Below, one piece after another: positions 5,078 through 63,257 of a stretch of 64,000 bases of DNA. Source of the DNA: Parabacteroides hominis. Its GTDB lineage: Bacteria; Bacteroidota; Bacteroidia; Bacteroidales; Tannerellaceae. The notes beneath the pieces are model-generated. The model made no database searches and was not told where the DNA came from. It worked only from the letters and a program-made list of their open reading frames with translations. Positions within the stretch are counted from its first letter, which is position 1. Every line of letters starts with the position of its first letter. The DNA is taken from assembly GCF_014287585.1 (NCBI RefSeq), contig NZ_JACOOJ010000010.1, forward strand, positions 72,056 through 136,055, in the 5' to 3' direction. Position numbers and translations under genes: made by a program.

Positions 5078-5127
5078 TAACTTGAATGATTCTAATGCCA
5101 TTATCAATTAAATGTAAATACTGTATT

Positions 5128-6609: not shown

Positions 6610-6627
6610 AATATAAAGAATAAGAAT

Positions 6628-7380: not shown

Positions 7381-7395
7381 AAGGAGGAAAAAACT

Positions 7396-44766: not shown

Positions 44767-45963
44767 ATGGCAAAAGCGAATGTTACTTTGTATACGCTCA
44801 TCGGAGATCCTGGCCGTGTCGTGAAAGCAATTCAGGAACGTTTTAAGGAGATGACTGAAGAACTTGTTTGTGAGGATGAAACGGTCGACCTGACTTTGCC
44901 GGATGGAACGCATGTCATCTTCTCGATCAAGCATCGGCAGAGCAAGCCGGATTTTATTGCTTCGCATACGTCCGGTATGGCCAATTATTTTTCTCAGGTG
45001 GAGACACCGCTGGCTGAACTGAAAGAAAATGTCTTGCGCCAGATACGCGTGTTCAACTGTGTGACGGGCATCACTTTCGATCTGGACGACAATGAAGACC
45101 GGACGAACTATATCCTGAACCGTTTGTTCGAGATTGCCGGAGACGTGACAGGCTTTCTGCTCTATCCGAGCATGCAGATCTTTACCGGTGAAGGAAAACT
45201 CCTTTTCTCTGTCAAAGGTGAAAGCCAGTTGACCGAGTTTATCCCGGTAGGGAATGCCGATTTACTGGATGGAAACCGGCCGGAAGAAGCTCAGGCCGAT
45301 GTGGAAAGGCGTTTGCGCTCGATCGCGCTGCTCGAAGAGAAGCATATCCCTTATATGGAATATTTGCGTAGTGAAGCATTGGAAAGCGAAGCTCGTCTAA
45401 GAAGCCGGAAGGATATGGTACAACGGGCTGCTGCATTGTTTGCCGTAGCTCTCTATTCGGAAGTCATGCTCTCGGAAGGTTCAGGACGGGAAGAAGCTCT
45501 GTTCTATTTTAATAAGATGGAACAGTTATACGAGGTAGAATCCTTTATGACGCCCGGCGAAAAGGCGTATATCGATAATCCGAACCCGGAAGAACAGGAA
45601 TGTATCCAGTTCGGATGGCGTTACGAATGTGTTGGTGTCCTGCTTTGGGCGGCAGGTGTTGTGGATGATTTGCCTTATCCGTCCGAGATTGTCGATGTTC
45701 CTGTCATCGCCGCCATTTTCTGGCAACATAAAGGCATCGGTGAACTGCTTTCGAAAGGTTTTCCCCGTCCGCAGTCCGAAATATTGGATGCTGCCGATAT
45801 TACACTTCGGTATGATTGGGCTTGTGTGGAAGCGCGAATTCATGGAAAAGAAGCTCCGGCTTCACTAAATGGGGGCGTTGTTATGGAACGGCATTATGCC
45901 TTTAACTGGATTATCGGGGCGAATGGCGGTGCAGATTGGGATGATATCCAACCGAATACATGA
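44767..45963 (+). CDS. DUF4272 family cytoplasmic protein
   Basis: 398 residues, no signal peptide. The first 170 residues are an alpha/beta domain (VTLYTLIGDPGRVVKAIQER). The second half matches my recollection of DUF4272: RRLRSIALLEEKHIPYMEYL, then RAAALFAVALYSEVMLSEG, the FGWRYECVGVLLWAAGVVDD helix and the C-terminal HYAFNWIIGANGGADWDD. Function of the family is not known; members often occur near nucleic-acid or toxin-immunity genes. It is 18 bases upstream of a secreted GH106-like gene, an odd pairing of a cytoplasmic and an exported protein. Confidence 0.75.
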   Translation: MAKANVTLYTLIGDPGRVVKAIQERFKEMTEELVCEDETVDLTLPDGTHVIFSIKHRQSKPDFIASHTSGMANYFSQVETPLAELKENVLRQIRVFNCVTGITFDLDDNEDRTNYILNRLFEIAGDVTGFLLYPSMQIFTGEGKLLFSVKGESQLTEFIPVGNADLLDGNRPEEAQADVERRLRSIALLEEKHIPYMEYLRSEALESEARLRSRKDMVQRAAALFAVALYSEVMLSEGSGREEALFYFNKMEQLYEVESFMTPGEKAYIDNPNPEEQECIQFGWRYECVGVLLWAAGVVDDLPYPSEIVDVPVIAAIFWQHKGIGELLSKGFPRPQSEILDAADITLRYDWACVEARIHGKEAPASLNGGVVMERHYAFNWIIGANGGADWDDIQPNT

Positions 45964-45981
45964 TATTAAATCTATCACGAT

Positions 45982-48267
45982 ATGAATAAACTATGGACTG
46001 CTGTAATACTTGTTCTTGGATTTGCATCCTGTTCCTCCAAGCAGGATGAATTGAGGACAGACTTTGAGAATCCACCGGAAGAATATCGCCCGATGCCGTT
46101 CTGGCATATCAACGGGCACATGACCCGTGCGGGCATCGAGAAAGAAGTGGGAGAAGCGAAAAGCCTTTCCGGCTTCGGAGGGGTGACGGTTTTGCCTGTC
46201 AGCCCCGGTACGCAATGGGGGACAGGTAAACCTTGTCCGGGAACCGAACCCGCTTATTTGAGTGACGAATATTTCGAACGCTATGCCGATATTCTTGATA
46301 TTTCCGAAAAACAGGGCACGCAGGTTATCCTCTACGACGATATTGATTTCCCAAGCGGTTCGGCTGGCGGACGGTTACGCAAGGAATACCCGCAGTACGT
46401 CCGTAAATACCTGTCGAAAGAAGAATTTACGGTGAAAGGAAACCAACCGGTCAGCCGTCAACGTAAAGATACGGCATCTGTCCTGGCTGCCGTTTCCGCT
46501 TTGAATGAGCAGACGCGCGAGGTGCTGGACCTGGGGCCTTATATGAATGGTAACACCTTGACGTGGAAAGCTCCTGCCGGAGAATGGCGCGTGATGTTTT
46601 TCAACTGTGGCGTCAGCATGGATTCTTATCACGGGAACCTGGTGGATTATATGCAGCCCGAAGCAGTCTCCCAATTATTGGAAATGACCTATGGCGAATA
46701 TGATAAGCGTTTCAATCGCTATTTCGGCAATGTGATTACGAAGACTTTCTTTGACGATGTGGGCTTTGTCCATCAGGAGAATGCATGGACGCCTGCCATT
46801 ACCGGCATTTTTAAGGAGAAATACGGAAAGAACCCGGCGTTGTATTATCCGGCTTTGTTCTACGACATCGGACCGGAGACGGGTGCGGCGCGTGTCGCTT
46901 TCTTCGATATCCGCTCCGAACTGATGGCTGAAGGGTATGTGAAACAAGTATCGGAATGGTCGGGCAAACGGCGCTTGAGCAGCATGGGGCATCCGCCTGA
47001 AAACTACAGCCCTAACTCGGTGGTGGCGAACGGGGATATCTTGAAGTATTACCGGCATGTGCAGATACCGTTGTTGGATGCTATCTTTTTCTATGGCCGT
47101 GGCCTGAATGGCTTTAAACAAATCAGTTCGGCTGCCGACCGGGGAGATAAGCCGGTTGTGGGAGCCGAGTTGTGCGGCGCTTTTCCTGCGGATATGGATT
47201 CGCTGACTTTATACCGTGTGGCTCTTGAAGCGATGGTGCGGGGTGTCAGTTTTGTCGTGCCTCATGGAATGTGGTATACGACGGATGCGGACAAGATTCG
47301 CATCCCGCCGTTGATTGCTCCTGAAAATCCGTTGCTGCGGGATGCGTTGCCGAATTATAGTGCCTGTGTGGGCCGTTCCTGCCTCATCCTCCAAGGGGGC
47401 CGCCGGGTTTCGGACATCGCTTTGCTATGGCCGATCACTGCAATTCAGGCTGAAACGTATATAAACCGGGATGCCAATTCCGGCCTTCCGGTGGCAAACT
47501 GGTTGCCGGAGCACGTCAATCATCATGTACTGAGCGACCTGTTGACCAATAAACTTCGTCGTGATTTCACCTTTGTCCATCCGGAAGATTTGTGCAACGG
47601 CAAGATTACGGCTACCGGCAGTGAACTGGTCTTGAATAATGAAACGAATATCCAGCATTACAAAGTTCTTTTAATGCCGGGCGGCGATGTGATTTCGGCC
47701 GAAACGATGAAAGCGATCAAGCAATACTATGATAATGGGGGAAAAGTGGTTGCCACCTCTTCCCTTCCGAAGCGTGCCGCTGAATTTGGGAGAGATGAGG
47801 AAGTTGTTCGTCTGGTTACCGAAATGTTCGGTATCGACCCGTCTCAGGAAAGCTATTCGGACAAGTTCAATTCCAATGCAAACAAAGGTCGCTTGGCATT
47901 TCTGCATAATCCGACTCCCGAAACCCTTGCAGATTTGTTTACGCGCTGGGAGCTTCGTGCAGATATTGCTTTCGATGAATCGACTATACCGCCTGCTCAG
48001 ATCGGTTTCCTGAATTATATTCATAAACAGAAGAAAGGCCGCGATTTTTATTACATCACCAATACGACCGGAAATACGGTTCACACGACCGTCTCTCTGC
48101 GTGGCAAATTCGACAATCTTGAATCCTGGAACCCGCACACCGGCAAAATCGAGCCCATTCGAAATTTCGAATTCGCCAAACAACCGGATGGCGGTTATGT
48201 GACAAACATCAAACTCTCGATGCCGCAAGTGTCGGGGGTGTTTATTGTGGGAAAGATGAAGGAATAA
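45982..48267 (+). CDS. GH106-like lipoprotein (alpha-L-rhamnosidase-related, short form)
   Basis: 761 residues. Lipobox FASC makes it a lipoprotein. The opening YRPMPFWHINGHMTRAGIEK corresponds to the first strand of GH106 proteins, and the barrel continues with VILYDDIDFPSGSAGG and later FVVPHGMWYTTDADK. It is about 200 residues shorter than the GH106 protein at 7396; the region after the barrel ends in a single small beta domain (DFYYITNTTGNTVHTTVSLR). Rhamnosidase activity is probable but not certain. It follows DUF4272 by 18 bases. Higher GC than the PUL immediately downstream. Confidence 0.75.
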   Translation: MNKLWTAVILVLGFASCSSKQDELRTDFENPPEEYRPMPFWHINGHMTRAGIEKEVGEAKSLSGFGGVTVLPVSPGTQWGTGKPCPGTEPAYLSDEYFERYADILDISEKQGTQVILYDDIDFPSGSAGGRLRKEYPQYVRKYLSKEEFTVKGNQPVSRQRKDTASVLAAVSALNEQTREVLDLGPYMNGNTLTWKAPAGEWRVMFFNCGVSMDSYHGNLVDYMQPEAVSQLLEMTYGEYDKRFNRYFGNVITKTFFDDVGFVHQENAWTPAITGIFKEKYGKNPALYYPALFYDIGPETGAARVAFFDIRSELMAEGYVKQVSEWSGKRRLSSMGHPPENYSPNSVVANGDILKYYRHVQIPLLDAIFFYGRGLNGFKQISSAADRGDKPVVGAELCGAFPADMDSLTLYRVALEAMVRGVSFVVPHGMWYTTDADKIRIPPLIAPENPLLRDALPNYSACVGRSCLILQGGRRVSDIALLWPITAIQAETYINRDANSGLPVANWLPEHVNHHVLSDLLTNKLRRDFTFVHPEDLCNGKITATGSELVLNNETNIQHYKVLLMPGGDVISAETMKAIKQYYDNGGKVVATSSLPKRAAEFGRDEEVVRLVTEMFGIDPSQESYSDKFNSNANKGRLAFLHNPTPETLADLFTRWELRADIAFDESTIPPAQIGFLNYIHKQKKGRDFYYITNTTGNTVHTTVSLRGKFDNLESWNPHTGKIEPIRNFEFAKQPDGGYVTNIKLSMPQVSGVFIVGKMKE

Positions 48268-48289: not shown

Positions 48290-48297
48290 TATATTTG
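48290..48297 (+). promoter_or_regulatory. Candidate -7 box of the sigma factor gene
   Basis: TATATTTG, full match, 36 bases before the start codon; no -33 element. Confidence 0.4.
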
Positions 48298-48333
48298 TGT
48301 TTGATTAGATTATAATAAACAGAAATGTAAAGG

Positions 48334-48906
48334 ATGTCGAGAGCTTCTGTAGATAAAAAAGACTTAAAAGATTTCGAGCAGTTATTCCATCAACTACAAC
48401 CCCGGCTTTATGCCTATTGTTGTAAATATGTTGAAGATAACGAGCTCGCAAGGGATATTGTGCAGGAGTGTTTCATCAATTTGTGGGAAAATTATGAGAG
48501 TGTACAAATTTCTTATGAGTTTTATTTATTTAAGGCTGTACATAATCGTTGTTTGTCTTATTTTCGTTCAGAACGCATTCATACGGAATATGCAAGTTCT
48601 GTAAAGATGAGGATTAAAGAACTTGAAATACACCCTGAATTGCCTTATCCCCTGACTGAACTTTATGTGAAAGAGGTCAATACTTTACTCAAGGAGAGCG
48701 TTTCCAAGCTCCCTGAAAAATGTCGCTTGATTTTCATGATGAGCCGCTATCAGAATATGAAAAACCAGGAAATAGCCGATACTCTGGGTATTAGTGTCCG
48801 TACTGTAGATGCTCAGATATATAATGCTTTGAAAATATTAAAGATAAAATTGAAAGATTATTTGCCGATACTGATGCTGCTGTTCCCCCATTTTTTTGCA
48901 AAATAA
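48334..48906 (+). CDS. ECF sigma-70 family sigma factor
   Basis: 190 residues. Region 2 (FHQLQPRLYAYCCKYVEDNE, LARDIVQECFINLWENYESV) binds core polymerase and the -10 element. Region 4 (LPEKCRLIFMMSRYQNMKNQ, EIADTLGISVRTVDAQIYNA) is a helix-turn-helix for the -35 element. In Bacteroidetes PULs such sigma factors pair with a FecR-like anti-sigma and an STN-containing SusC: substrate binding at the outer membrane frees the sigma factor. The anti-sigma gene follows after 68 bases. Confidence 0.93.
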   Translation: MSRASVDKKDLKDFEQLFHQLQPRLYAYCCKYVEDNELARDIVQECFINLWENYESVQISYEFYLFKAVHNRCLSYFRSERIHTEYASSVKMRIKELEIHPELPYPLTELYVKEVNTLLKESVSKLPEKCRLIFMMSRYQNMKNQEIADTLGISVRTVDAQIYNALKILKIKLKDYLPILMLLFPHFFAK

Positions 48907-48974
48907 AAAAAAAGTATACTTTTTTCTAAGTAGTAATCCTGACTTGTGCGTCATTCTTACAAAGAGCATGAGTT

Positions 48975-49955
48975 ATGGAAGAATCAACCGATATATTAAT
49001 TGTTTCTTATCTGAAAGGAGAGGCTACCAATGACCAGCAAAAAGAGTTATTGGCTTGGCTTGAGTTGAGTGAAGAAAACCGATTCTATTTCCGTTCAATC
49101 AAGGATGTTTATGATCTGGGACGGATAGAGTCTGATATACGTGACAGCCAAGTTGATCGGCAATGGCATAAATTTCTCGATAAAGTTTTTCCTGTGTATA
49201 ATACAAATAGTTGGTTGAGAATAGGTCATATATTACTTCGTTATGCCGCTGTTTTTGCTTTCGGTCTTATTTGTATGCAATTGATTTCTTATTTTATTGG
49301 TGACAAGGAAACTTATTCGAAAGTGACCAAAGTAGAAACCGGGGTCGGTGAACGTTCAAAGGTGAGTTTGCCGGATGGTTCGATTGTTTGGGTGAATGCC
49401 TGTAGCTCGATTAGTTATGATGAATCTTTCGGGAAAGAGAATCGTACAATTCGAATGAGGGGAGAAGCTTTTTTTGACGTAGAGAAGGATCAGTCCAAAC
49501 CATTCCTCGTTCATGCAGAACCTTTTACTTTCCGCGTTACTGGAACTTCTTTTAATGTATATGCTTTTGATGAAGAAGATGAAATAAGTCTTGCATTGAT
49601 AGAAGGATCTGTAACTGCCGAAAAAGGTTCTTATATGGAGAAACTTCGTCCAGGGGAAGTTTTGGTTTATGATAAAACACAAGCGAAAATTAGTCATAGA
49701 AAGCTTATTTCCAGTTCATATACAGCCTGGCGCTATGGAGAGATGTTTTTTGATAAAATGACTTTCGAAGATTTGACTCGTCGGTTGGAACGTAATTTCA
49801 ATGTAAAATTTAAATTTGAGAATCAGAAGATCAAGAAAGAATCTTTCGGAGGTTCATTTCGTAAATATGAATCGCTGGAAACCATTATGAGAGTGATCAG
49901 TACAAGTACTCCTGTGAAATACCGGATAGAAAAGGATACTGTGTACATTAAATAA
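48975..49955 (+). CDS. FecR-type anti-sigma factor
   Basis: 326 residues. The N-terminal 80 residues are the cytoplasmic sigma-binding part (LLAWLELSEENRFYFRSIKD). One membrane helix (about 86-108) is followed by the periplasmic FecR domain (VETGVGERSKVSLPDGSIVW, VNACSSISYDESFG, GEAFFDVEKDQSKPFLVHAE). The C-terminal DUF4974-type domain (FFDKMTFEDLTRRLERNFNV) would contact the STN domain of SusC. It completes a surface-signalling cascade with the sigma factor and SusC genes on either side. Confidence 0.93.
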   Translation: MEESTDILIVSYLKGEATNDQQKELLAWLELSEENRFYFRSIKDVYDLGRIESDIRDSQVDRQWHKFLDKVFPVYNTNSWLRIGHILLRYAAVFAFGLICMQLISYFIGDKETYSKVTKVETGVGERSKVSLPDGSIVWVNACSSISYDESFGKENRTIRMRGEAFFDVEKDQSKPFLVHAEPFTFRVTGTSFNVYAFDEEDEISLALIEGSVTAEKGSYMEKLRPGEVLVYDKTQAKISHRKLISSSYTAWRYGEMFFDKMTFEDLTRRLERNFNVKFKFENQKIKKESFGGSFRKYESLETIMRVISTSTPVKYRIEKDTVYIK

Positions 49956-50021
49956 TGAGTCGTTAACATTAAATCTGATATGGAGGAATTGCCTATGGTA
50001 TAGAAGAAAGAGAGAAACAGA

Positions 50022-50096
50022 TAAAAAACCGGGATAAGTGCCACCTTATCCCGGCTCTAATATCAAACAACAAAATTATTGTCTAATATCTAATCG
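50022..50096 (-). ncRNA. Candidate antisense small RNA opposite the susC leader
   Basis: A minus-strand promoter (50102-50132) points leftward and is followed about 40 bases later by a perfect 10-bp hairpin, CTTATCCCGG with CCGGGATAAG (50029-50054), and six T on that strand. The predicted transcript is about 75 bases and complementary to the region just upstream of the susC start. The arrangement matches cis-encoded PUL-repressing RNAs of the DonS type described in Bacteroides fragilis, which lie between anti-sigma and susC genes. Expression is not proven by sequence. Confidence 0.65.
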
Positions 50097-50101
50097 TACA
50101 A

Positions 50102-50132
50102 CAAAGATATGAAAAAAGAATATTTAATCAAA
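50102..50132 (-). promoter_or_regulatory. Antisense promoter at the susC start
   Basis: Minus strand: TTTG (50129-50132), 19 bases, TATCTTTG (50102-50109). Both boxes are perfect and the spacing is canonical. The -7 box touches the A of the susC ATG. Confidence 0.7.
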
Positions 50133-53100
50133 GGTGTCAAACTTTTGATACCACAAAAAATATGGCTAAAAATGAAGCTGATAACAATCTTTTTATTCCT
50201 TGTTACATTCTGCTTGCAGGCCAATAACACGTATTCTCAAAATGCAACTGTTAACCTGAATTTAGAGAATGTGTCCTTGACGGACGTTTTCAGAGAAATA
50301 GAGAAACAGTCGGATTACCGCTTTTTCTTTAATAACACGGTTTTGAATGCAGTGAAGAAACAAAATGTGAAAACAGGAGAGAAGAGTATTACTGCAGTCC
50401 TGGACCAGCTTTTTGAGGGAACAGATATCGGTTATAAATTGATCGATCGCTATATTGTCATAACTTCAAAGAAAGAAGATGTAAGTAACTTATTGGCAAG
50501 ATCTGATGCTTCTATACAGATCGTGGGATTGGTTACAGATGAGAATGGTGAACCGATATCAGGTGCGAGTGTAAGTTTGAAAGGTTCGACTGTCGGGGCA
50601 ATTACCGATATAGATGGAAAATATACAATCAGTGTGCCGACAACAAAGTCGGTATTGGTCTTTTCTTTTATCGGCTATGTATCTCAGAATATTATAGTGG
50701 GTAGTCGCTCTGTTATCAATGTGAAATTAAAAGAAGATAACCAATTGATCGATGAAGTAGTGGTTATTGGCTATGGTTCTGTTAGAAAGAGCGATTTGAC
50801 AGGTTCCGTTTCTCAAGTTCGTTCTACTGTCCTTGAGAACCAAGCTGTTCTTCGTGATCCGGTACAAGGATTGCAGGGGAAGGTCGCAGGTCTGGATATC
50901 ACAGTCGGTAATAAACCGGGTGATACATCTACGCCCATTATCCGTGGTTATAATTCCTTGAATGCAGGTAACGATCCGTTGATCGTTCTGGATGGGGCTC
51001 CCTTTGGAGGGAAGATATCTGATATAAATCCGGCGGAAATCGAAGCGATAGACGTGTTGAAGGATGCTTCTTCAACAGCTATTTATGGTTCAAGAGGCTC
51101 TAACGGGGTTATCATCATTACGACAAAAAGGGGAAAAATGGACGGAAAGGTGTCTGTATCCTATGATGGATTTGTCGGTATATCCAAATCGTTTAAAGAT
51201 TACAATATGATGTCCGGTGATAAATGGGCAAATTATTTGAGAGCTGCCAATCCGGGAAAAACCGATGCAGAATTGTTTGTGGGTGTTACGGATATTCTTG
51301 AAAGTCGGAACTTTGTAGATTGGCAAGAAGAAATGTTTTCCGGAACCGGTTTTCAAACAGATAATAATGTTACGGTGAATGTTGGTAAAGACAATATGTC
51401 GAATTTGATCGTATTAGGATATAATAAAAACCAGAGTATAATCGACAACATGTCAAGCGAACGTTTCAGTATGCGCTTGAATGGGGATGTCAGGCTTTTT
51501 GATCGGTTGAAATTAGGATATTCAGCTATGTATTCCCACCGTAAGACCGATAATGGGAATAATAGCGTATTCTTAAATGGTACGACCTTGAACCCTGTCA
51601 CTCGGATATACGATGATGAAGGTGCACTACAATACTATCCGAGCCCTTATTGTGAAAGTTTCATGCAGATAAATCCGAAGTATTACGTGAGTGATGAATA
51701 TTTGGAAAATCAATCATTTAGGGATCGCGCTTTCTTTAATTTCTCTGCAGAGTTGGATATCATCGACGGATTGAGTTTCCGTACAAGCTTGACTCCGGAC
51801 TTCCAGTTTATAGAAGATGGTAATTACAACAGTCCGTATATGAACTTGATGTCATATAATTCATTATCATACAAAAAGACAACAGAAAAATCTTTGACTT
51901 TTACGAATATATTGAAGTATGACAAACAGATCGGTATTCATAATCTGAGTGTATCGGCGGTACACGATATGCAAACATATACTACGGATTATCTGCAATT
52001 GACAGGTTCTGATGTCCCTTATTATGGTAAGTGGTACAATGTGAATGAAGCACCGGATATTTTCGAACGTAAATCATCTTACAACAAGTGGTCATTGCTT
52101 TCATTTATGGGACGTATCAACTATACGTTGAAGGATAAGTATTTGCTTACTTTGACTGGACGCTATGATGGGTCATCCCGTTTGGCTAAGGGCAATAAAT
52201 GGGATTTTTTCCCTTCAGTAGCTTTGGCATGGCGTATTAATTCCGAACCTTTTATGCAGAATGTTGATGTAATTTCTAATCTGAAAATGAGATTGAGTTG
52301 GGGTAATACAGGCAATACAGCAATAAATAGTTATTCTACTTTAGGTGCATTTTCTAAATATCCGTATGTCATGGGAGTCGGAGAAGAATCTGCAATGGGT
52401 TATTTGCCTAAAGAACTGTCTAATCCAAGTTTAGGCTGGGAACGTACAGAAGAGTATAATATAGGTTTTGATTTTGGTTTCTTCCGGAACCGTATCGAGG
52501 GTACTGTGGATTTATATCGTCGTGATACTCATGATCTGTTGATGAAACGCTTGTTACCGATTACTACCGGATATAATGAAACTTGGCAAAATATTGGAAA
52601 AACAAGAAATACCGGTGTGGAAGTTGCCTTGAATACGGTTCCTTTTGTGAATAAAAATTGGGAATGGACAGTCGGCTTGACTTTTGCTTATAATAAAAAT
52701 GAGATTGTGGAATTATATGATGGTTTGACACAAGATAGAGGTAATAAATGGTTTGTAGGTGAACCTCTTCAAGTCGAACTTCTGTACAAATATGACGGAG
52801 TTTGGCAAACGGAAGAGGCTGAAGAAGCTAAAAAATATGGATATGTGCCCGGTAATCCAAAAGTAAAAGATGTCAACCAAAATGGGAAGTACGATCAGGA
52901 AGATCAGTTTATTTATAATAAAATTCCGAAGTTTACCGGAGGTCTGAATACGACACTTAAGTATAAGAATTTAGATTTGAACTTGTATTTATATAGTCGT
53001 ATCGGTTATGGACAAAAAATAGGATTGTTGACCTATGAGGCAGGTTCTTCACGTATGAACCACCTTGATGTTGATTTCTGGACACCGGATAATCCGTCGA

Positions 53101-53393
53101 ATACATTCCCTAAGCCGGTAGGATCCAATACTCAACCGCTTCTGGAACAGAGCGATTATGCTTATCGTAATTTGTCCTTCCTGCGTTTGAAGAATATCAA
53201 TCTGGGATATACTTTCCCTGCACAAATGATTGAAAAAATTAAAGCAAATCGTTTGAGAGTTTATTTAGCTGTTGATAATCCATTTGTTTGGACTTTTAAC
53301 AATTTTGAAGGGCTTGATCCTGAGAACTGTTATGCTTATGATAGCCATAGGCCTTTGACTTCTTTTGTTTTTGGGCTGAATGTTTCATTTTAA
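50109..53393 (+). CDS. SusC/RagA TonB-dependent outer-membrane transporter with STN domain
   Basis: 1094 residues. The signal sequence is preceded by about 20 basic residues, as in many STN-type SusC proteins; MKLITIFLFL (residue 22 on) is an alternative start. Domains in order: STN signalling domain (about 50-120), carboxypeptidase-D-like repeat (138-210, VTDENGEPISGASVSLKGS), TonB-box/plug entry DEVVVIGYG (215-223), plug (NAGNDPLIVLDGAPFGGKIS; STAIYGSRGSNGVIIITTK), then a beta barrel ending in Phe (LNVSF). It imports the PUL's glycan across the outer membrane with TonB energy. The STN domain links it to the FecR/ECF pair upstream. SusD is 14 bases downstream. Confidence 0.96.
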   Translation: MKKEYLIKGVKLLIPQKIWLKMKLITIFLFLVTFCLQANNTYSQNATVNLNLENVSLTDVFREIEKQSDYRFFFNNTVLNAVKKQNVKTGEKSITAVLDQLFEGTDIGYKLIDRYIVITSKKEDVSNLLARSDASIQIVGLVTDENGEPISGASVSLKGSTVGAITDIDGKYTISVPTTKSVLVFSFIGYVSQNIIVGSRSVINVKLKEDNQLIDEVVVIGYGSVRKSDLTGSVSQVRSTVLENQAVLRDPVQGLQGKVAGLDITVGNKPGDTSTPIIRGYNSLNAGNDPLIVLDGAPFGGKISDINPAEIEAIDVLKDASSTAIYGSRGSNGVIIITTKRGKMDGKVSVSYDGFVGISKSFKDYNMMSGDKWANYLRAANPGKTDAELFVGVTDILESRNFVDWQEEMFSGTGFQTDNNVTVNVGKDNMSNLIVLGYNKNQSIIDNMSSERFSMRLNGDVRLFDRLKLGYSAMYSHRKTDNGNNSVFLNGTTLNPVTRIYDDEGALQYYPSPYCESFMQINPKYYVSDEYLENQSFRDRAFFNFSAELDIIDGLSFRTSLTPDFQFIEDGNYNSPYMNLMSYNSLSYKKTTEKSLTFTNILKYDKQIGIHNLSVSAVHDMQTYTTDYLQLTGSDVPYYGKWYNVNEAPDIFERKSSYNKWSLLSFMGRINYTLKDKYLLTLTGRYDGSSRLAKGNKWDFFPSVALAWRINSEPFMQNVDVISNLKMRLSWGNTGNTAINSYSTLGAFSKYPYVMGVGEESAMGYLPKELSNPSLGWERTEEYNIGFDFGFFRNRIEGTVDLYRRDTHDLLMKRLLPITTGYNETWQNIGKTRNTGVEVALNTVPFVNKNWEWTVGLTFAYNKNEIVELYDGLTQDRGNKWFVGEPLQVELLYKYDGVWQTEEAEEAKKYGYVPGNPKVKDVNQNGKYDQEDQFIYNKIPKFTGGLNTTLKYKNLDLNLYLYSRIGYGQKIGLLTYEAGSSRMNHLDVDFWTPDNPSNTFPKPVGSNTQPLLEQSDYAYRNLSFLRLKNINLGYTFPAQMIEKIKANRLRVYLAVDNPFVWTFNNFEGLDPENCYAYDSHRPLTSFVFGLNVSF

Positions 53394-53407
53394 AATAGAA
53401 CGATAGT

Positions 53408-55129
53408 ATGAAAACATTATATATTTATAGTCTTTTATTTGTTGCATGTTTGCTACAGTCTTGTTCCTCTTTTCTGGATGAGACGCCTTATAACAAAATT
53501 ACGGCTGGTAATTTTTATACGACTGCCAAAGAGGCGGAACAGGGAGTAAATGGTTTGTATTCCCGTATGCGGGATTTGTATGGGTCCGGATATATTTTAT
53601 ATATGTGCGAGGCTCCGACTGATATATGGAAAAGTGCCAAATCAATGGATATAGAATTTCAGAATTGGACTATTGATGCTACATCCAGTAATGTAACAAA
53701 ACTTTGGACTAATTGCTATGTAACGATTAATCAAGCAAATGCTGTTCTTAAAGCATTGACAAATAACGATATTCCGGATTTAAGTGAAGAAAAGAAGTTA
53801 CAATATATCAGTGAAGCTAAATTTATCCGTGCACATCATTATTACCATTTAGTACAGCAATATGGAGATGTCGAATTGAAAACAGAACCTACCGAGACAT
53901 TAGTTACGGAAGCTTATAAGACACCCGAAGCTGAAATCTGGAATTTTATTATAGACGAAATGAAATATTGCCTGGAAAATCTTCCGGATGATCAGAATGT
54001 CTATGGCCGTATTACCAAAGAAGCGGTAAAACATAATTTAGCACGTGTCTATCTGACCGTTAAACGTAATGATGAGGATATTAAAGAAGCGAAACGGTTA
54101 GCTGAGGAGGTTATTGCTTCTTCTCATTCTTTGATGAGTTCTCATGAAGAGTTGTGGAATACTGACAATATGCGTAATCCGGAAGTCCTACTTCCTGTTC
54201 TTTTTACTACAAATACGGAGTTAAACGGGGAAGGACAGCAACTTCATGTTATGTTTACAGCTTCCTATTCGGATCACTATCCGAAAGTATTGGAGCGTGA
54301 TTTGACTTATGGACGTCCTTGGAGCCGTATTCGTCCTACTTATTATTTGCAGGAATTATATGATGAGACAAAAGATGCCCGTTGGGAAGATTGTTACCGT
54401 ACTTTCTGGCGTGTAAATAAAGAAGAGGCAACCGATATGGTTTTCAGTCCTTATTCGAAGAAATCGGAAGAGATTGTATGGAGAAAAGGAGATTCTGTCA
54501 TGATTATTCCGAAACATCCTTGGACGAAAGAACAAGTGAAGGCTGTATGGCCGGTTTGGGTGTGGATGCCGGATGAGATGAGAGAGGAACTGCAGGATAA
54601 GGTTCAGTCGGAGACAAATCCGAATGGCGAGTGGCCTTCCAATACGAAATTCCAGAGTGGAACGATGTATACGACTTTGATAAAGCTGCAAGATCCATTA
54701 CGTCCGAGTGCAAATGAGATGAAAGGAGTCCGCGATATTGTGGTCTTCCGTTTAGGAGAAACCTATTTGCTGGCTGCAGAGGCGTGCCATTTGTTGGGAG
54801 ATAATGAAAAAGCAGCTGAATATATTAATGTAATTCGTAAGCGTGCGGCTATACCGGGTAAGGAAAAAGAGATGGAGATAACAGCAGACCAGATCAATAT
54901 TGATTTCATTTTGGATGAAAGAGCGCGTGAGATGGCAGGTGAATTTTGCCGTTGGTATGACTTGAAACGGACAGGTAAATTGTATGAGCGTATGAATAAT
55001 CCGAACATGAATGAGATCGTAGCCGGTAAATTTCTGGAATATCATGTTCTTCGCCCGATTCCGAGAGATCAGTTGGCCCGTATTTCAAATCCGGAAGATT
55101 TTCCACAGAATGAAGGTTATGGTAATTGA
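53408..55129 (+). CDS. SusD/RagB glycan-binding lipoprotein
   Basis: 573 residues. Lipobox LQSC in the signal peptide. The family pattern is complete: FLDETPYNKITAGNFYTTAK at the start, EAKFIRAHHYYHLVQQYGDV in the first TPR, RLGETYLLAAEACHLLGDNE in the later TPR, and the end DERAREMAGEFCRWYDLKRT, LRPIPRDQLARISNPE. It forms the surface lid of the SusC just upstream. It should be co-transcribed with the two enzyme genes that follow within 10 bases, so all serve one substrate. Confidence 0.96.
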   Translation: MKTLYIYSLLFVACLLQSCSSFLDETPYNKITAGNFYTTAKEAEQGVNGLYSRMRDLYGSGYILYMCEAPTDIWKSAKSMDIEFQNWTIDATSSNVTKLWTNCYVTINQANAVLKALTNNDIPDLSEEKKLQYISEAKFIRAHHYYHLVQQYGDVELKTEPTETLVTEAYKTPEAEIWNFIIDEMKYCLENLPDDQNVYGRITKEAVKHNLARVYLTVKRNDEDIKEAKRLAEEVIASSHSLMSSHEELWNTDNMRNPEVLLPVLFTTNTELNGEGQQLHVMFTASYSDHYPKVLERDLTYGRPWSRIRPTYYLQELYDETKDARWEDCYRTFWRVNKEEATDMVFSPYSKKSEEIVWRKGDSVMIIPKHPWTKEQVKAVWPVWVWMPDEMREELQDKVQSETNPNGEWPSNTKFQSGTMYTTLIKLQDPLRPSANEMKGVRDIVVFRLGETYLLAAEACHLLGDNEKAAEYINVIRKRAAIPGKEKEMEITADQINIDFILDERAREMAGEFCRWYDLKRTGKLYERMNNPNMNEIVAGKFLEYHVLRPIPRDQLARISNPEDFPQNEGYGN

Positions 55130-55139
55130 TAATAGAAAA

Positions 55140-56150
55140 ATGAAGTACCCAGGCGTTTATGCCTGGATACTTCTCTTTTTAGTGTTGAATATGTATTCTG
55201 TTTTCGCATTGGAAAGAAAGAATGCTTGTGTAAAAATCATTTTTGATACAGATATGTTGACCGACTGTGATGATGCGGCTGCTTTGGGAATCCTGCATAA
55301 ATTGGCCGACGCCGGAGAGGCTGAAATATTGGCTACGATGGTAACTTCTTCTTACCCTATGTCTGCACCGGTGGTAGATGTTATAAATACATATTATAAT
55401 AGGCCGGATATTCCGATCGGGGTCCCGAAAAAAGGTTACGGGGTTTATCGGGATAATTCATCCTTTTTGGATTCGGTTGCGGCTGAATTTCCACATCGGT
55501 TGGATTCTAATTCAGAAGCTCTTGATGCCGTGGCTTTATACCGGAGGATTTTAAGTGAACAGGAAGATTCATCAGTGGTTATTTTGACAGTCGGTTACAT
55601 GTCTAATCTGGCGTCTCTTTTAAAAAGTGCTCCTGATTGTTATTCTGCGCTAAACGGGATGGAACTGATACGGAAGAAAGTGAAAGTTTGGATTTGTATG
55701 GGAGGTAATTTTCCCGTTGATGATGCGTCTGATAATGTGAACTTTACACGTGATCCTGAATCCGCAGTGTATGCAATTGCTCATTGGCCTGGAAAAATAG
55801 TTTTTGCAGGTAGAGAAATAGGACATACGATATTTGTGGGAGATCGTTTAAAAAATACGTCTATTGATAATCCGGTTCGGCGTGCTTATCAACTGCACAG
55901 GGAAAGAGCGAAGGCCGAACATTGGAATCATCATACGGCTGACCCGACTGCAGTTTTACTGGCGGTAAGGGGCATATTAAATTATTGGAATTTAAGCGAA
56001 TGTGGATATATAGATATTAAAAATAATTGTAGTTTTGTGTGGAAGGATCATTCGGAAGGAAATCAACGATATATCAAACAAAAGATGGATCGTGGACGAT
56101 TGGGACGGATTCTGGAAGATTTAATGGTAATACCACCTGATAAACATTGA
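55140..56150 (+). CDS. Nucleoside hydrolase family enzyme, exported
   Basis: 336 residues from the ATG 10 bases after susD; longer frames run inside susD and are rejected. A signal peptide (MKYPGVYAWILLFLVLNMYS) is followed by the calcium-binding aspartate cluster DTDMLTDCDDAAAL (36-49) of inosine-uridine nucleoside hydrolases. The C-terminal ADPTAVLLA block provides another expected metal-site Asp. The family cleaves N-ribosidic bonds of nucleosides; exported PUL members may act on other pentofuranosides. In the Bacteroides ribose-scavenging (Rus) loci a nucleoside hydrolase accompanies SusC/D, a useful parallel, but no ribokinase is present here. Confidence 0.88.
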   Translation: MKYPGVYAWILLFLVLNMYSVFALERKNACVKIIFDTDMLTDCDDAAALGILHKLADAGEAEILATMVTSSYPMSAPVVDVINTYYNRPDIPIGVPKKGYGVYRDNSSFLDSVAAEFPHRLDSNSEALDAVALYRRILSEQEDSSVVILTVGYMSNLASLLKSAPDCYSALNGMELIRKKVKVWICMGGNFPVDDASDNVNFTRDPESAVYAIAHWPGKIVFAGREIGHTIFVGDRLKNTSIDNPVRRAYQLHRERAKAEHWNHHTADPTAVLLAVRGILNYWNLSECGYIDIKNNCSFVWKDHSEGNQRYIKQKMDRGRLGRILEDLMVIPPDKH

Positions 56151-56157
56151 ATAAAAT

Positions 56158-58449
56158 ATGAAAAAACGATTGATTTCTGTATTTGTGATGTTATTGTTGC
56201 CATTGTTAGTTGTGGCTCGGCAAAGGGTTATTGTGGATACCGATATCGATTCGGATGTGGATGATGCCGGGACATTGGCAATGCTTTATACCTTGCATAA
56301 GCAACACAAGATAAATCTGCTGGGGACTATAGTGACAAGCGATGATCCTTTTGCTGTAACTTGTGTGAGTGCTTTCAATGCGTATTATGGAATGGGTGAC
56401 TTATCGTTGGGCTTTCTGGAAGGACAATCTTTTTTGAAAAACCATTCTCGTTACACCCGGCAGATTTCGGAAGAGTTTCCGCACGACCTTCCTTCTTGGA
56501 AAGATGCGGAAACAGCTACTAATACCTATCGAAAATTATTGGCCGGAAGCCCTGATCATTCTGTTGTAATTTTGACAATTGGTCATTTGAGCAGTTTGCA
56601 GAGGCTACTTCAATCACCGGCAGACCAGTATTCTCATCTTAACGGGAAACAATTAGTCGAGGCGAAGGTTAAGAGATGGTATTGTATGGGGGGATTGTTT
56701 CCGGAAGGAAAAGAAGCTAACTTTTCACGACCTGATCCGGGGTCAACAGTATTTTGTTTGGCTAACTGGACAAAAGAAGTCGTATTTTGTGGATGGGAGA
56801 TTGGTGAACGGATTATTACGGGCGATCTGGCATTGAAAGCAGAGCTAAACCCTGAAAATCCCATGTACAGGGCTTATGAATTATATAACGACTTTAAAGG
56901 GCGCGCCAGTTGGGACCAGGTTACTGCTTTTTTGTTGGCTGATGAGGCTTCCCATTATTTAGAATTGGATAATGCCGGCTCTTGTTTGCTTGAAGCGGAC
57001 GGTAGTAATCGGTGGATACCCGGTAAGAAAGGAAATCAATTTATCGTACGGTTTAGGCCGGAGGTGAATGTTAAGGAGTTAGCCGGGAAGATAACGGATT
57101 TGATGTTAGGGAAAAACATTACTGATTATTCGTATCTCCCTTGGGTTGGCAAATCTGTAGACTTTTCACATGGGCCTCTTGTTGTTTCTGAGAATAAACG
57201 GTTTTTGGTTCATGCGGATGGAACTCCGTTTTTTTATATGGGCGACACTGCCTGGGAATTATTTCATCGTTTGACAGAAGAAGAGATAGACCGGTATCTG
57301 GAAAACCGGCGGGAAAAGGGGTTCAATGTCATACAAGCGGTGATTTTAGCAGAATTGGATGGCTTGAATACACCGGATCGGAATGGTAACCGGCCATTGG
57401 TGAATAATGATCCGGCTCAGCCTGATGAAGCCTATTTTAACTGGGTGGATCGGATCATAAATAAGGCTGCGGCGAAAGGGTTATATATGGGATTGTTGCC
57501 GACCTGGGGTGATAAAGTTGATAAACAATGGGGAATCGGCCCCGTTATCTTTAATGAACGGAATATTGCCGGTTATGGCCGTTTTTTGGCAAACCGCTAT
57601 AAAGATTATCCCAATATCATTTGGATAATCGGGGGTGACCGGAATGGAGGCGATGCCAATATGCCTGTCTGGAATGCGCTGGCAAATGCGATCAAGTCGA
57701 TAGACAAGAATCATCTGATGACATTTCATCCTTATGGACGCCACACTTCCAGCCAATGGTTTCACAATGCTGACTGGCTTGATTTTAACAGCAGCCAAAC
57801 CGGACATGCCAATTGCAGTTTCGATATATTTGAAAATCTGATTGTCGGAGATTATAACAAACTTCCAGTAAAACCGTGTATCAATATGGAGCCTTGTTAT
57901 GAAGACCATCCTGTCAGGGGTGACATCTGCACCTCTACCACTTGGTTCGACGATACAAATACCCGGCAAGCCTTATATTGGAGCCTTTTTTCAGGAGCAG
58001 CGGGACATACGTATGGTTGTCATCCGATTTGGCAATGTATGTCACCTGTTTATGAGCCGACGGGCAATGTGCTCAATAACTGGTATGATGACTTGGATTT
58101 GCCGGGTGCTGGAAATATGATACATGCTCGTAGACTATTTGAAAAGTATGACTACTTCAGCCGTCGTCCTGCTCCTGAGATAATTTTGACAGAACAGCAA
58201 GTGATCGGAGATATGGCAGTTGCTGTACAAGGTAAGGGATATGCATTCGTTTATTTGCCGAACGGTAATCCTGTGGATATTTTTTTAGAAACATTGCCGG
58301 AGGCTACAACCTTGACATTACAATGGTATAATCCCCGTACCGGACAATATACTTTGATAGGAGAGGTTTCGGCAAAAGGAAATTATAGGGCTAAACCAAT
58401 AAGTTCGGGTATTGGGAACGACTGGATATTGGTGATGAATTCTAAATGA
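56158..58449 (+). CDS. Fusion of nucleoside hydrolase domain and GH140-like apiosidase domain
   Basis: 763 residues with a signal peptide (cleaved near VVARQ). Residues about 22-320 are a complete nucleoside-hydrolase domain: DTDIDSDVDDAGTL (27-40), ILTIGHLSSLQ, and the late metal Asp in WDQVTAFLL. Residues about 340-763 are a DUF4038-type barrel of the GH140 apiosidase kind: HADGTPFFYMGDTAWELFHR at its start, the IIGGDRNGGD loop with a likely acid/base Asp, NMEPCYE with a likely nucleophile Glu, and a C-terminal DUF5060/collagen-binding-like beta domain (FVYLPNGNPVDIF to GNDWILVMN). Both parts act on pentofuranosides in known relatives. Both active sites look intact, so a bifunctional enzyme is likely. 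Last gene of the PUL. Confidence 0.88.
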   Translation: MKKRLISVFVMLLLPLLVVARQRVIVDTDIDSDVDDAGTLAMLYTLHKQHKINLLGTIVTSDDPFAVTCVSAFNAYYGMGDLSLGFLEGQSFLKNHSRYTRQISEEFPHDLPSWKDAETATNTYRKLLAGSPDHSVVILTIGHLSSLQRLLQSPADQYSHLNGKQLVEAKVKRWYCMGGLFPEGKEANFSRPDPGSTVFCLANWTKEVVFCGWEIGERIITGDLALKAELNPENPMYRAYELYNDFKGRASWDQVTAFLLADEASHYLELDNAGSCLLEADGSNRWIPGKKGNQFIVRFRPEVNVKELAGKITDLMLGKNITDYSYLPWVGKSVDFSHGPLVVSENKRFLVHADGTPFFYMGDTAWELFHRLTEEEIDRYLENRREKGFNVIQAVILAELDGLNTPDRNGNRPLVNNDPAQPDEAYFNWVDRIINKAAAKGLYMGLLPTWGDKVDKQWGIGPVIFNERNIAGYGRFLANRYKDYPNIIWIIGGDRNGGDANMPVWNALANAIKSIDKNHLMTFHPYGRHTSSQWFHNADWLDFNSSQTGHANCSFDIFENLIVGDYNKLPVKPCINMEPCYEDHPVRGDICTSTTWFDDTNTRQALYWSLFSGAAGHTYGCHPIWQCMSPVYEPTGNVLNNWYDDLDLPGAGNMIHARRLFEKYDYFSRRPAPEIILTEQQVIGDMAVAVQGKGYAFVYLPNGNPVDIFLETLPEATTLTLQWYNPRTGQYTLIGEVSAKGNYRAKPISSGIGNDWILVMNSK

Positions 58450-59707: not shown

Positions 59708-61612
59708 TCATCTACCGTTCACTACGAAATTTCGTATCTGGCATTCCGTTCCCTGTGAAGCGGGGTTTTTCTTTTTCGATATGCGGAGAACCAGCTTGTG
59801 GTTCGTATCTTTCAGTTCCGTTTCCAGCATGTAGACCCAGGGAATATAAAGATTGTGGCTCCATTCAGTGAAAGTATCCAGTTCTTTGAACGGGGCGCCG
59901 TCGACACTATATTCCAAAATTCCGGCAGAAGGTCCGCTGACGCAGAAAATGCCGATCGCTTTCCCTTGGAAATCCAACGTCAGCCGGTCGCCCGGACGAG
60001 TAGCCTCCAACATCGGGACATCGACAAAGCCGTTCCGCTTGCCGGCCTTGTTGTCTGGATGCCAGTTGTCGACAAACTTCCAGCCTTTGTCTAAACGTGC
60101 TTTTTCGAGAGCGATGAAATCTCCATTATAATAACTGTAGGCATCCAGCGGCTTGGCCGGAATGTCGTGTGCCGCAATTGTCCCTTCCGGCGAAACTCCT
60201 TTCCACATCTCGTCGAAAAGATGGCCGATAGCGGCAGCATAAAACTTATGGCCGAAAGGTTTCGGATGAGTGCCGCCGAACTCGTCCCAGGTAAATTCGC
60301 CGTTTTGCATCCGTTCGCCGATCTCCTGGCAGAGATTGATCGAAGGAATAAGATAGTGATTCGCCACCCGTTCGTGATTCAGGATAACATCCGGCATCTG
60401 GCGGCGGGCGATCATCGGGATAAACGGGTCGTAGATGAAATGCAACATGACGATATCCATTTCCGGGTTGCTTTCCAAAGCATGGCGCACTTCCCCTTCC
60501 ATGCCGCGTACCTGTTCGAGGGCGCTGAATCCGTTCGTGTCGTCGTTTACGGCGGCTTCGACGAAAAGAAGGTCGACTTTCCCTTTCGAAAGGATGTCAT
60601 GTTGCAGGCGGAAGGAACCCGGAGTCGTCCCGGTCGAACCGATGCCTGCTTTTACCCATTCGAATTGTGTATAAGGGAAACGTTGCTGTAGTTGTCGCTC
60701 TACCATATTGCGCCATCCGTCCATTTCCGTGATGGAACCTCCCAGGAAGGCGACCCGCGCCCGGCGTTCTTTCTCGAACTTACGGAACGAGTTTTGCAAG
60801 CTGCCACGTATCGTATAATGTAAGTACTTTTCATATTCCGGCTGCTGGCGAAGGATGAAGTCTACTACCGGTTCCGGATTGTCCAGACTGTGCGGATGAT
60901 GGTCGCATCCTTTCTTTAGGATAACTTCCACCGGACCTCCTGCCGCAAGATAGCGCGAACGTACGACATCCATGTTTTCCTTGTAAGGGACGGTCTGGTC
61001 ACTATCGCCGCATACGCTGATGATCGGTATGCCTGCGGCTGCGATAGGGGAGAGGTTGTCGATCGGGTTCCCTTTGAAATGCTCCATCCCGGCATCTGTC
61101 AGGTTCCATTCTTTCAAGAGGTCATTCCATAAAGCCGCGTTTTTTCTTCCCGGCCAGCTAAACACGTCGCAAACAGGAGCGTCTACATATATACAAGCCA
61201 CTTTCTCCGTATTCTGGGCTGCCCAGTTGAATACAAACAAACCGCCGCGGCTGAATCCTTCCAGCGTTACTTTATCGGATAGTCCGTAGAGGTTTGTTAC
61301 GTTCTCATAGAATTCCGTGCCTAAAGAGACCGCTCTTGGGCTTCCGTACAAATGGGTGACGTCATAGTAAACAACGTGGAATCCCTTTTCCAGTAGCGCT
61401 TTGTCCACGCTTGGAAATGCATCGAAAAAGGCCGGACGCCAGATCCACGGATTTCCTTTGGCCGCTTTTTGGGGTACGACAACGGTTGCCTGGCGGTCCT
61501 TGAAGGTGAAATCGTAACGGTCGCATCCGTTCCATACGCTTTTTTCAGCTTGGGCCTGGGCGGCCAGGCTGATTATCAGGGACAGAAGTACCGGATAAAT
61601 AATCTTTTTCAT
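59708..61612 (-). CDS. Two-domain esterase: alpha/beta hydrolase fused to SGNH/GDSL hydrolase
   Basis: 634 residues. The signal peptide ends AAQAQAE. The first 270 residues are an alpha/beta hydrolase with nucleophile Ser121 in GFSRGG, and Asp/His in the CGDSDQTVP and CDHHPHS regions. Residues about 285-480 are an SGNH hydrolase: GGSITEMDG with Ser293, the AGIGSTGTTPG and VNDDTN blocks, and a GTHPKPFGH catalytic end. A beta domain follows to the end. Such pairs occur in acetyl- and feruloyl-type carbohydrate esterases, so de-acetylation of a plant polysaccharide is likely but not proven. The first Met (61660) is upstream of the predicted transcription start, so 61612 (or 61621) is chosen. Divergent from the hexuronate-type transporter. 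Confidence 0.85.
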   Translation of the reverse strand: MKKIIYPVLLSLIISLAAQAQAEKSVWNGCDRYDFTFKDRQATVVVPQKAAKGNPWIWRPAFFDAFPSVDKALLEKGFHVVYYDVTHLYGSPRAVSLGTEFYENVTNLYGLSDKVTLEGFSRGGLFVFNWAAQNTEKVACIYVDAPVCDVFSWPGRKNAALWNDLLKEWNLTDAGMEHFKGNPIDNLSPIAAAGIPIISVCGDSDQTVPYKENMDVVRSRYLAAGGPVEVILKKGCDHHPHSLDNPEPVVDFILRQQPEYEKYLHYTIRGSLQNSFRKFEKERRARVAFLGGSITEMDGWRNMVERQLQQRFPYTQFEWVKAGIGSTGTTPGSFRLQHDILSKGKVDLLFVEAAVNDDTNGFSALEQVRGMEGEVRHALESNPEMDIVMLHFIYDPFIPMIARRQMPDVILNHERVANHYLIPSINLCQEIGERMQNGEFTWDEFGGTHPKPFGHKFYAAAIGHLFDEMWKGVSPEGTIAAHDIPAKPLDAYSYYNGDFIALEKARLDKGWKFVDNWHPDNKAGKRNGFVDVPMLEATRPGDRLTLDFQGKAIGIFCVSGPSAGILEYSVDGAPFKELDTFTEWSHNLYIPWVYMLETELKDTNHKLVLRISKKKNPASQGTECQIRNFVVNGR

Positions 61613-61649
61613 AATAATCATGGTATTTATAGAGTTTACATTGGAGAGG

Positions 61650-61680
61650 CAAACGTACATAAAATGCTTATTTTATGCAA
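61650..61680 (-). promoter_or_regulatory. Promoter of the esterase gene
   Basis: Minus strand: TTG (61678-61680), 20 bases, TACGTTTG (61650-61657). Confidence 0.65.
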
Positions 61681-61750
61681 GTCAAACCTCTAATAATCCG
61701 GGCTTGGATGTGAAAGAAATAAAATACTTCGTGTATTCGCACACACAAAC

Positions 61751-61782
61751 TTGCGTATAACAAAAAAAATGCCTTATATTTG
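61751..61782 (+). promoter_or_regulatory. Promoter of the MFS transporter gene
   Basis: TTG (61751-61753), 21 bases, TATATTTG (61775-61782). Predicted leader about 27 bases. Confidence 0.65.
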
Positions 61783-61814
61783 CCCCCGTATTATGAAAAA
61801 CGAATATTAATATC

Positions 61815-63257
61815 ATGAACACATTTCAAAAAGCAAGTGAGAAAATGACAAATTACAGATGGACAATCTGCGCGATGTTATTTTTTGCAACAACAGTGAA
61901 TTACCTCGATCGCCAGGTCCTTTCGTTGACCTGGGATGAATTTATCAAACCGGAGTTCCATTGGGACGAATCCCATTACGGTACGATAACATCAGTTTTC
62001 TCAATTGTATATGCAATCTGTATGCTGTTTGCCGGTCGTTTTATCGACTGGATGGGCACGAAGAAAGGATATCTTTGGGCTATCGGTGTTTGGTCGTTCG
62101 GAGCCTGTCTCCATGCCGGTTGCGGTATTGCAACCGAACATTATGTCGGTATGAACAGTGCAGCGGAGCTGATTGCGGCAACAGGAGATGTTGTTGTGGT
62201 ATTGGCAACCGTGAGTATGTATTTCTTCCTGGCCGCCCGTTGTATTCTGGCGTTGGGTGAAGCAGGTAACTTTCCCGCAGCCATCAAGGTTACGGCAGAA
62301 TACTTCCCGAAGAAAGACCGTGCCTATGCAACTTCTATTTTCAATGCCGGCGCTTCTATCGGCGCTTTGGTCGCTCCTATTTCTATTCCTTTGTTGGCAA
62401 AAGCCTGGGGTTGGGAAATGGCCTTTATCGTGATCGGTGCGCTTGGTTTTGTTTGGATGGGCTTGTGGGTATTCATGTACACGACCCCGGACAAGAGCAA
62501 ACATGTGAATAAAGCCGAGTTGGAGTATATCGAACAGGATAAGAATGAAAAAGACGTTGTCATTGTCGAAGAAGAACACGAGAAGAAGATCGGTTTCATG
62601 CAATGTTTCACGTTCAAACAGACTTGGGCTTTCATTGTCGGTAAATTCATGACAGACGGGGTTTGGTGGTTCTTCCTTTTCTGGACTCCTTCTTATCTGA
62701 ATACGCAGTTCGGCATCAAGACTTCCGATCCGCTGGGTATGGGGTTGATCTTTACCCTGTATGCCATTACGATGTTGTCTATTTACGGAGGTAAGCTGCC
62801 GACGATCTTTATTAACCGGAGTGGAATGAACCCCTATGCCGCCCGTATGAAAGCGATGTTGATTTTTGCTTTCTTCCCGTTGTTGGTTCTGTTGGCGCAG
62901 CCGTTGGGTACGATTTCCCCGTGGTTCCCGGTTATCATGATCGGTATCGGTGGCGCAGCCCATCAGTCATGGTCTGCCAATATTTTCTCGACTGTCGGTG
63001 ATATGTTCCCGAAATCGGCTATTGCAACCGTTACGGGTATCGGAGGCATGGCCGGTGGTGTCGGTTCGATGATCTTGCAGAAAGTGGCCGGGAATCTGTT
63101 TGTTTATGCAGATGCTACTCAAATGACGTTTATGGGCTTCACGGGTAAGCCAGCCGGCTATTTCGTTATCTTCTGCGTATGTGCTGTCGCTTATTTGATC
63201 GGCTGGGTGATCATGAAGATTTTGGTTCCGAAATATAAAGTGATCGTTCTTGAATAA
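61815..63257 (+). CDS. MFS transporter of the hexuronate (ExuT/ACS) type
   Basis: 480 residues with 12 predicted membrane helices. The first helix region TVNYLDRQVLSLTWDEFIKP and the loop GRFIDWMGTKKGYLW are characteristic of the anion:cation symporter group that takes up galacturonate and glucuronate. A charged cytoplasmic loop (KNEKDVVIVEEEHEKKIGFM) separates the two halves, and the GMAGGVGSMILQK helix is well kept. It would bring pectin-derived uronic acids across the inner membrane, fitting the GH28 and esterase genes in this window. Monocistronic, with its own promoter and terminator. Confidence 0.9.
   Translation: MNTFQKASEKMTNYRWTICAMLFFATTVNYLDRQVLSLTWDEFIKPEFHWDESHYGTITSVFSIVYAICMLFAGRFIDWMGTKKGYLWAIGVWSFGACLHAGCGIATEHYVGMNSAAELIAATGDVVVVLATVSMYFFLAARCILALGEAGNFPAAIKVTAEYFPKKDRAYATSIFNAGASIGALVAPISIPLLAKAWGWEMAFIVIGALGFVWMGLWVFMYTTPDKSKHVNKAELEYIEQDKNEKDVVIVEEEHEKKIGFMQCFTFKQTWAFIVGKFMTDGVWWFFLFWTPSYLNTQFGIKTSDPLGMGLIFTLYAITMLSIYGGKLPTIFINRSGMNPYAARMKAMLIFAFFPLLVLLAQPLGTISPWFPVIMIGIGGAAHQSWSANIFSTVGDMFPKSAIATVTGIGGMAGGVGSMILQKVAGNLFVYADATQMTFMGFTGKPAGYFVIFCVCAVAYLIGWVIMKILVPKYKVIVLE

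Follow-up and report, generated by a model that had tools for sequence, protein, structure and literature searches.

A 64,000-nucleotide stretch of Parabacteroides hominis (assembly GCF_014287585.1, contig NZ_JACOOJ010000010.1, positions 72,056 to 136,055; hereafter the window) contains a real and unusual polysaccharide utilization locus (PUL). Its operon carries two domains of the nucleoside-hydrolase (NH) fold: NH-B, which is encoded by its own gene, and NH-A, which is fused to a glycoside hydrolase family 140 (GH140) module. The SusC/SusD pair, the glycan enzymes, and the regulator of a PUL are all found within this one operon. The operon is best read as a furanoside PUL, probably serving to obtain apiosyl residues from a pectic glycan; of the pentofuranoses that might be the target, apiose has the strongest support. 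Nucleoside hydrolases are known for acting on nucleosides; apiose is a branched sugar that cross-links pectic rhamnogalacturonan II (RG-II) via borate. The sequences suggest that NH-B and NH-A-GH140 might jointly release apiofuranosyl groups from a glycan that is probably rich in rhamnose and uronate, such as RG-II or apiogalacturonan. This reading is tentative, and is given slightly less than an even chance.

The GH140 module matches the solved apiosidases, namely 8t9w from a mangrove metagenome (E=7e-115; 44-45% sequence identity) and BT1012 (5msy; E=3e-78; 35% identity). The AlphaFold2 (AF2) model of the fusion has a mean predicted local distance difference test (pLDDT) score of 88.5, and its GH140 module superimposes on 8t9w with a template modelling (TM) score of 0.92 and a root-mean-square deviation of 1.9, at 45% identity. 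Alignment with 8t9w, BT1012, 4qfu, and 58 other rows showed that both acids of the IGGD and EPxYE motifs, which we take to be the catalytic pair of GH140, are kept. By sequence and by fold, the window module is a member of GH140, and it has the fold, the catalytic acids, and the C-terminal beta domain in common with the known apiosidases. It differs from them in being joined to an N-terminal NH domain, and in being located in a short PUL. The fusion gene (56158-58449) is a single open frame of 763 amino acids. An assembly or frame error was considered as the source of the fusion and rejected, because seven relatives of 762-765 amino acids align with it from end to end. The nearest fusion relative (P0007) belongs to a cluster of 467 sequences.

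Fusions of this kind were found repeatedly. Residues 1-335 of P0006 (NH-A) were searched against 5.77 billion proteins, for proteins of 420-1335 amino acids; such a search reaches only relatives that share short exact words. The 15 hits consisted of seven NH-A+GH140 proteins, six NH-A+NH-B tandems (one truncated), one NH-A+DUF5060+PF13204 protein, and one weak outlier (P0253). All 14 clear hits are joined either to a GH140-type module, in two architectures, or to NH-B. Two more distant NH-type+GH140 fusions are P0016 and L051; in the latter, Pfam detects GH140 only, and the NH part was recognized by a locally built profile. In the GH140 tree, where P0197 is partial with a long branch and the bootstrap values are unsettled, the fused modules do not form one group; P0252, P0016, and L051 are placed apart from the group of the window. 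The P0013 module clusters with unfused modules inside the larger clade of the window, so some of the unfused relatives may have arisen by the splitting of a fusion, or the other way round. The joining of NH-type and GH140 domains is read as having arisen separately at least three or four times. This recurrence supports a pentofuranoside target, as had been claimed in the preliminary description of this DNA, and apiose is favoured because of the GH140 module in the fusion. Distant NH domains are also fused to a sulfatase (L047:9989-12343), a ThuA domain (L057:9983-11758), and a 3-keto-disaccharide hydrolase (L018:3001-4773).

Phylogenetic analysis showed that NH-A and NH-B form separate supported clades (100/98 and 100/100, respectively). 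A recent duplication of one NH gene was therefore rejected, since the two domains lie in distinct clades and share 35% sequence identity. The AF2 model of NH-B (pLDDT 94.2) has the NH fold; for NH-A, NH entries appear among the fold matches of the fusion model. The PDB sequence searches gave no match for the NH-A alignment, nor for P0005 alone. The active site residues were mapped by a profile alignment to 1mas and by MAFFT alignment with Escherichia coli RihC, using the numbering of the Crithidia inosine-uridine nucleoside hydrolase (IU-NH). Among the non-gap rows of 122 aligned NH-B sequences, the calcium-binding and catalytic aspartates are kept (D10 in 114/114, D14 in 118/119, D15 in 118/119, and D242 in 117/118). 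The position of E166 is occupied by Asn in 117 of 119 rows; Ala replaces H241 in 115 of 116, and a single row of 121 retains N39. In NH-A, the aspartates are visible in the alignment, and the E.N motif is kept in 15/15 rows, with E166 retained; Ser stands at the position of N39 in the rows of the tree alignment, except in the divergent P0016 fusion, which lies outside the NH-A clade. A related clade, NH-C, keeps E166 in 10/10 and N39 in 7/10. With respect to PF01156, both domains thus have the fold and the catalytic aspartates, and Glu166 is present in NH-A and absent from NH-B. In IU-NH complexes, Glu166 contacts O5' of the ribose. The change to Asn in NH-B would suit a sugar that, like apiose, lacks the 5'-CH2OH found in ribose.

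In comparison with IU-NH and RihA/B/C, the window NH modules share 14-21% identity among the entries listed, have a signal-like N-terminus, and are borne on a PUL. Their first active-site loop is longer than that of RihC by two residues. The E166 and N39 positions are changed in NH-B, and the kin of these modules are fused to glycosidase or isomerase modules.

The isomerase partner belongs to NH-B. A search for relatives of NH-B gave 1066 hits, and among the best 120 of these the RpiB-type isomerase domain PF02502 occurs in 19 and PF13204 in 1. Of these 19 fusions, 18 have Ser in place of the phosphate-binding Arg of RpiB; the remaining one (P0203) does not cover the position. A standalone RpiB adjoining NH-B in L006 also has Ser. 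The Arg is found in the five solved RpiB alignments listed, and in all four that could be aligned of the seven unlinked RpiBs fetched from NH-A/NH-B genomes; of the others, L145 was unaligned there and has Arg by eye, and two had no readable row. Among 200 genomes of one Clostridia family, three contain the NH-B-RpiB fusion and seven a strong GH140, and all three fusion genomes are among the seven (hypergeometric p 2.7e-5, ignoring kinship), with the three fusion loci known beforehand and GH140 already known in two of these three genomes. The GH140 gene is not adjacent to the fusion in these genomes.

The genomic contexts suggest uronate-rich glycans bearing furanosyl groups. In L009, a metagenome-assembled genome labelled Tangfeifania, NH-B is located between two GH106 genes, together with SusC/D-like and heparinase-type genes. 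In L117-L119, of which L118 and L119 are Prolixibacteraceae PULs, SusC/D and a DUF4466-type gene precede NH-A (L118:7824-8843 and L119:9031-10050); it is followed in L119 by alginate-lyase-type, PL8, and heparinase-type genes, while the L117 sequence ends shortly after NH-A. A Cyclobacteriaceae locus (L138:2376-9033) contains ADP-ribosyl-glycohydrolase, Sde182-type NH, ThuA, NH, and GH140 genes in a row, where the NH (PF01156) ends 148 bp ahead of GH140. The recurring GH106, GH88/105, and uronate-lyase-type genes beside NH genes suggest a glycan rich in rhamnose and uronate, and the earlier statement that the target is not a standard polysaccharide is unsupported. Clustering of the neighbours of 57 loci found no widely common partner besides NH.

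The operon recurs in Parabacteroides acidifaciens (L001), with 81.5% nucleotide identity across 10.2 kb. There it is followed by a GH88/105 gene (PF07470), which the window does not have. A GDSL/abhydrolase gene and a major facilitator superfamily (MFS) transporter gene downstream of the operon (59708-63257) are kept in both species, and this MFS protein might be the importer of the freed sugar. The whole fusion was found in just one of 123 genomes from the P. acidifaciens family, that of P. acidifaciens itself, and is thus rare among the species sampled.

Several observations weigh against the release of apiose by these enzymes. In L118 and L119, NH-A occurs alone with uronate-lyase-type genes, and no GH140 lies within 7-9 kb on each side. 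In L123:7443-14609, a PfkB kinase, a permease, three NH-type genes, and a sulfatase are arranged in a row; one of the three (L123a) belongs to the NH-A clade, follows the kinase and the permease, and precedes another NH, which points to ribose. In a contrast of 57 genomes (GH140 at E<=1e-60), GH140 accompanied NH-B in 7 of 10 (L001-L010, with an NH above 450 bits by the NH-B profile) and distant NHs in 19 of 47, which is not significant (Fisher p 0.16). An order-wide set of 275 Clostridia genomes contained the isomerase fusion only in the genome already known, and gave no second test. The fused isomerase P0179 is above the NCBI RpiB cut-off (168.7 versus 138.65 bits) and reaches 31 bits with the PRK09273-type profile (cut-off 137). 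The latter is taken to be the type of the D-apiose isomerase ApsI. No PRK09273-type isomerase passed the cut-off in any of 15 genomes, and no search was made for further genes of apiose use. The fused RpiB domain as an apiose isomerase is therefore unsupported by the family scores; because it passes the RpiB cut-off, it appears to be an altered RpiB, and not ApsI as far as tested. A catabolic pathway for D-apiose with the ApsI isomerase is known (see also PMC13001218). Such a pathway would consume the sugar freed by the operon, and differs from the present case, where the fused isomerase is RpiB-like.

An alternative is that the NH modules are true ribosidases, which release ribose from nucleosides, ADP-ribose-like compounds, or ribose-bearing glycans as in the Bacteroides Rus locus, with GH140 acting on a different linkage. 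The Rus locus is reportedly used for ribose scavenging, and is said to contain ribokinase, ribose permease, and ADP-ribosyl-glycohydrolase genes with the NH. The earlier comparison with Rus holds in part: both systems combine SusC/D with an NH, and NH-C is a related clade. The kinase, permease, and ADP-ribosyl-glycohydrolase genes accompany the NH-C clade, which is represented in P. acidifaciens by a separate copy; the window operon has different NH clades, and GH140 in their place. A domain scan agreed with the preliminary description that the operon has no ribokinase, and among 30 open reading frames (ORFs) of the window it found no PfkB, ureide-type permease, or ADP-ribosyl-glycohydrolase (PF03747), and two MFS transporters. 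The contexts of NH-C and of L123a, the E.N motif that NH-A has in common with RihC and NH-C, and the RpiB-level score of the isomerase are consistent with ribose. The lack of those kinase, permease, and glycohydrolase genes among the 30 ORFs, the loss of E166 in NH-B and of N39 in both NH-A and NH-B, and the recurrence of GH140 as a fusion partner argue against it, and this alternative is considered possible but rather unlikely.

It is less probable still that the NH modules cleave some other furanoside from an acidic glycan of plants or microbes (aceric acid, arabinofuranose, or a ribofuranose of an exopolysaccharide, for instance), and that the GH140 specificity is widened. NH-A without GH140 in the Prolixibacteraceae PULs, the lyase genes of L119, and the distant fusions to sulfatase, ThuA, or 3-keto-disaccharide hydrolase would suit such an activity, but it leaves the recurrence of GH140 with NH modules in several architectures unexplained. 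A purely binding or scaffold role of the NH modules beside a solely catalytic GH140 is very improbable: the three altered active-site positions of NH-B would allow it, but the aspartates are retained in both modules, and the fusion of NH-B to an isomerase suits an enzyme role.

The features of the operon and of two genes ahead of it are listed in Table 1.

Table 1. Coordinates (window positions), strand, and domain matches of the operon genes and the preceding gene pair.
Feature	Coordinates	Strand	Domains and scores
Extracytoplasmic function (ECF) sigma factor	48334-48906	+	PF04542, PF08281
FecR anti-sigma factor	48975-49955	+	PF04773, PF16344
SusC-type TonB-dependent transporter with STN domain	50109-53393	+	PF07660, PF07715; TIGR04056 845 bits
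SusD-type lipoprotein	53408-55129	+	PF07980, PF14322; Cys after LQS lipobox (by eye)
NH-B, nucleoside-hydrolase-fold enzyme with signal-like N-terminus	55140-56150	+	PF01156 E=5e-13
NH-A, N-terminal nucleoside-hydrolase domain of the fusion	56158-57150	+	PF01156 25.9 bits, below cut-off 34.2
GH140 (apiosidase-like) domain and C-terminal beta domain of the fusion	57187-58449	+	PF13204 E=7e-118, PF12904
DUF4272 protein, operon membership uncertain	44767-45963	+	PF14094 E=7e-65
GH106-like (alpha-L-rhamnosidase family) protein, likely accessory	45982-48267	+	PF17132 E=3e-29

The six genes are present on one strand in the order previously reported (ECF sigma, FecR, STN-SusC, SusD, NH-B, and NH-A-GH140), and the gaps from susC on do not exceed 14 bases, as stated before (14 between susC and susD, 10 between susD and NH-B, and 7 between NH-B and the fusion). 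Position 48290, formerly given as the start, is intergenic and lies ahead of the sigma gene. The gap of 10 assumes that NH-B begins with the ATG at 55140, and the mechanical ORF start is 55044, inside susD. The start at 55140, directly before a signal-like segment, is the most likely one from the sequence. Both NH-B and the fusion protein have hydrophobic N-termini, which look by eye like export signals. The DUF4272 and GH106-like pair (44767-48267) is separated from the sigma gene by 66 bases, and is not found at the corresponding place in P. acidifaciens. A second pectin-type cluster with GH28 and GH106 genes is located at the opposite end of the window (5086-10278), near a SusD gene (23-1630).

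If the operon acts on apiosyl groups, the sigma/FecR pair would sense the glycan, and SusC/D would take in oligosaccharides. The periplasmic GH140 would cleave the beta-apiofuranosyl bond through its two acids, as in other members of the family. NH-A and NH-B would then hydrolyse the remaining furanosyl bonds, with calcium bound to the cis-2,3-diol, which is common to apiofuranose and ribofuranose. In Clostridia, the fused isomerase, without the phosphate Arg of RpiB, might convert the freed aldose to a ketose. NH-A and NH-B might even represent a pair of apiofuranose-specific O-glycosidases of the NH fold, forming with GH140 (and the isomerase in Clostridia) an undescribed salvage module and a new GH family, although this extension is doubtful.

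The open-licence library searched contained no paper in which nucleoside hydrolases appear alongside both GH140 and polysaccharide utilization, alongside both SusD and polysaccharide utilization loci, or alongside apiosidase. Cleavage of apiofuranosides, if true, would extend the nucleoside-hydrolase fold to a new function. If this clade cuts sugar-sugar furanosyl bonds, a group of PF01156 members from gut and environmental bacteria that so far lack an assignment would be given a function, and what becomes of apiose in gut bacteria could be tested directly.

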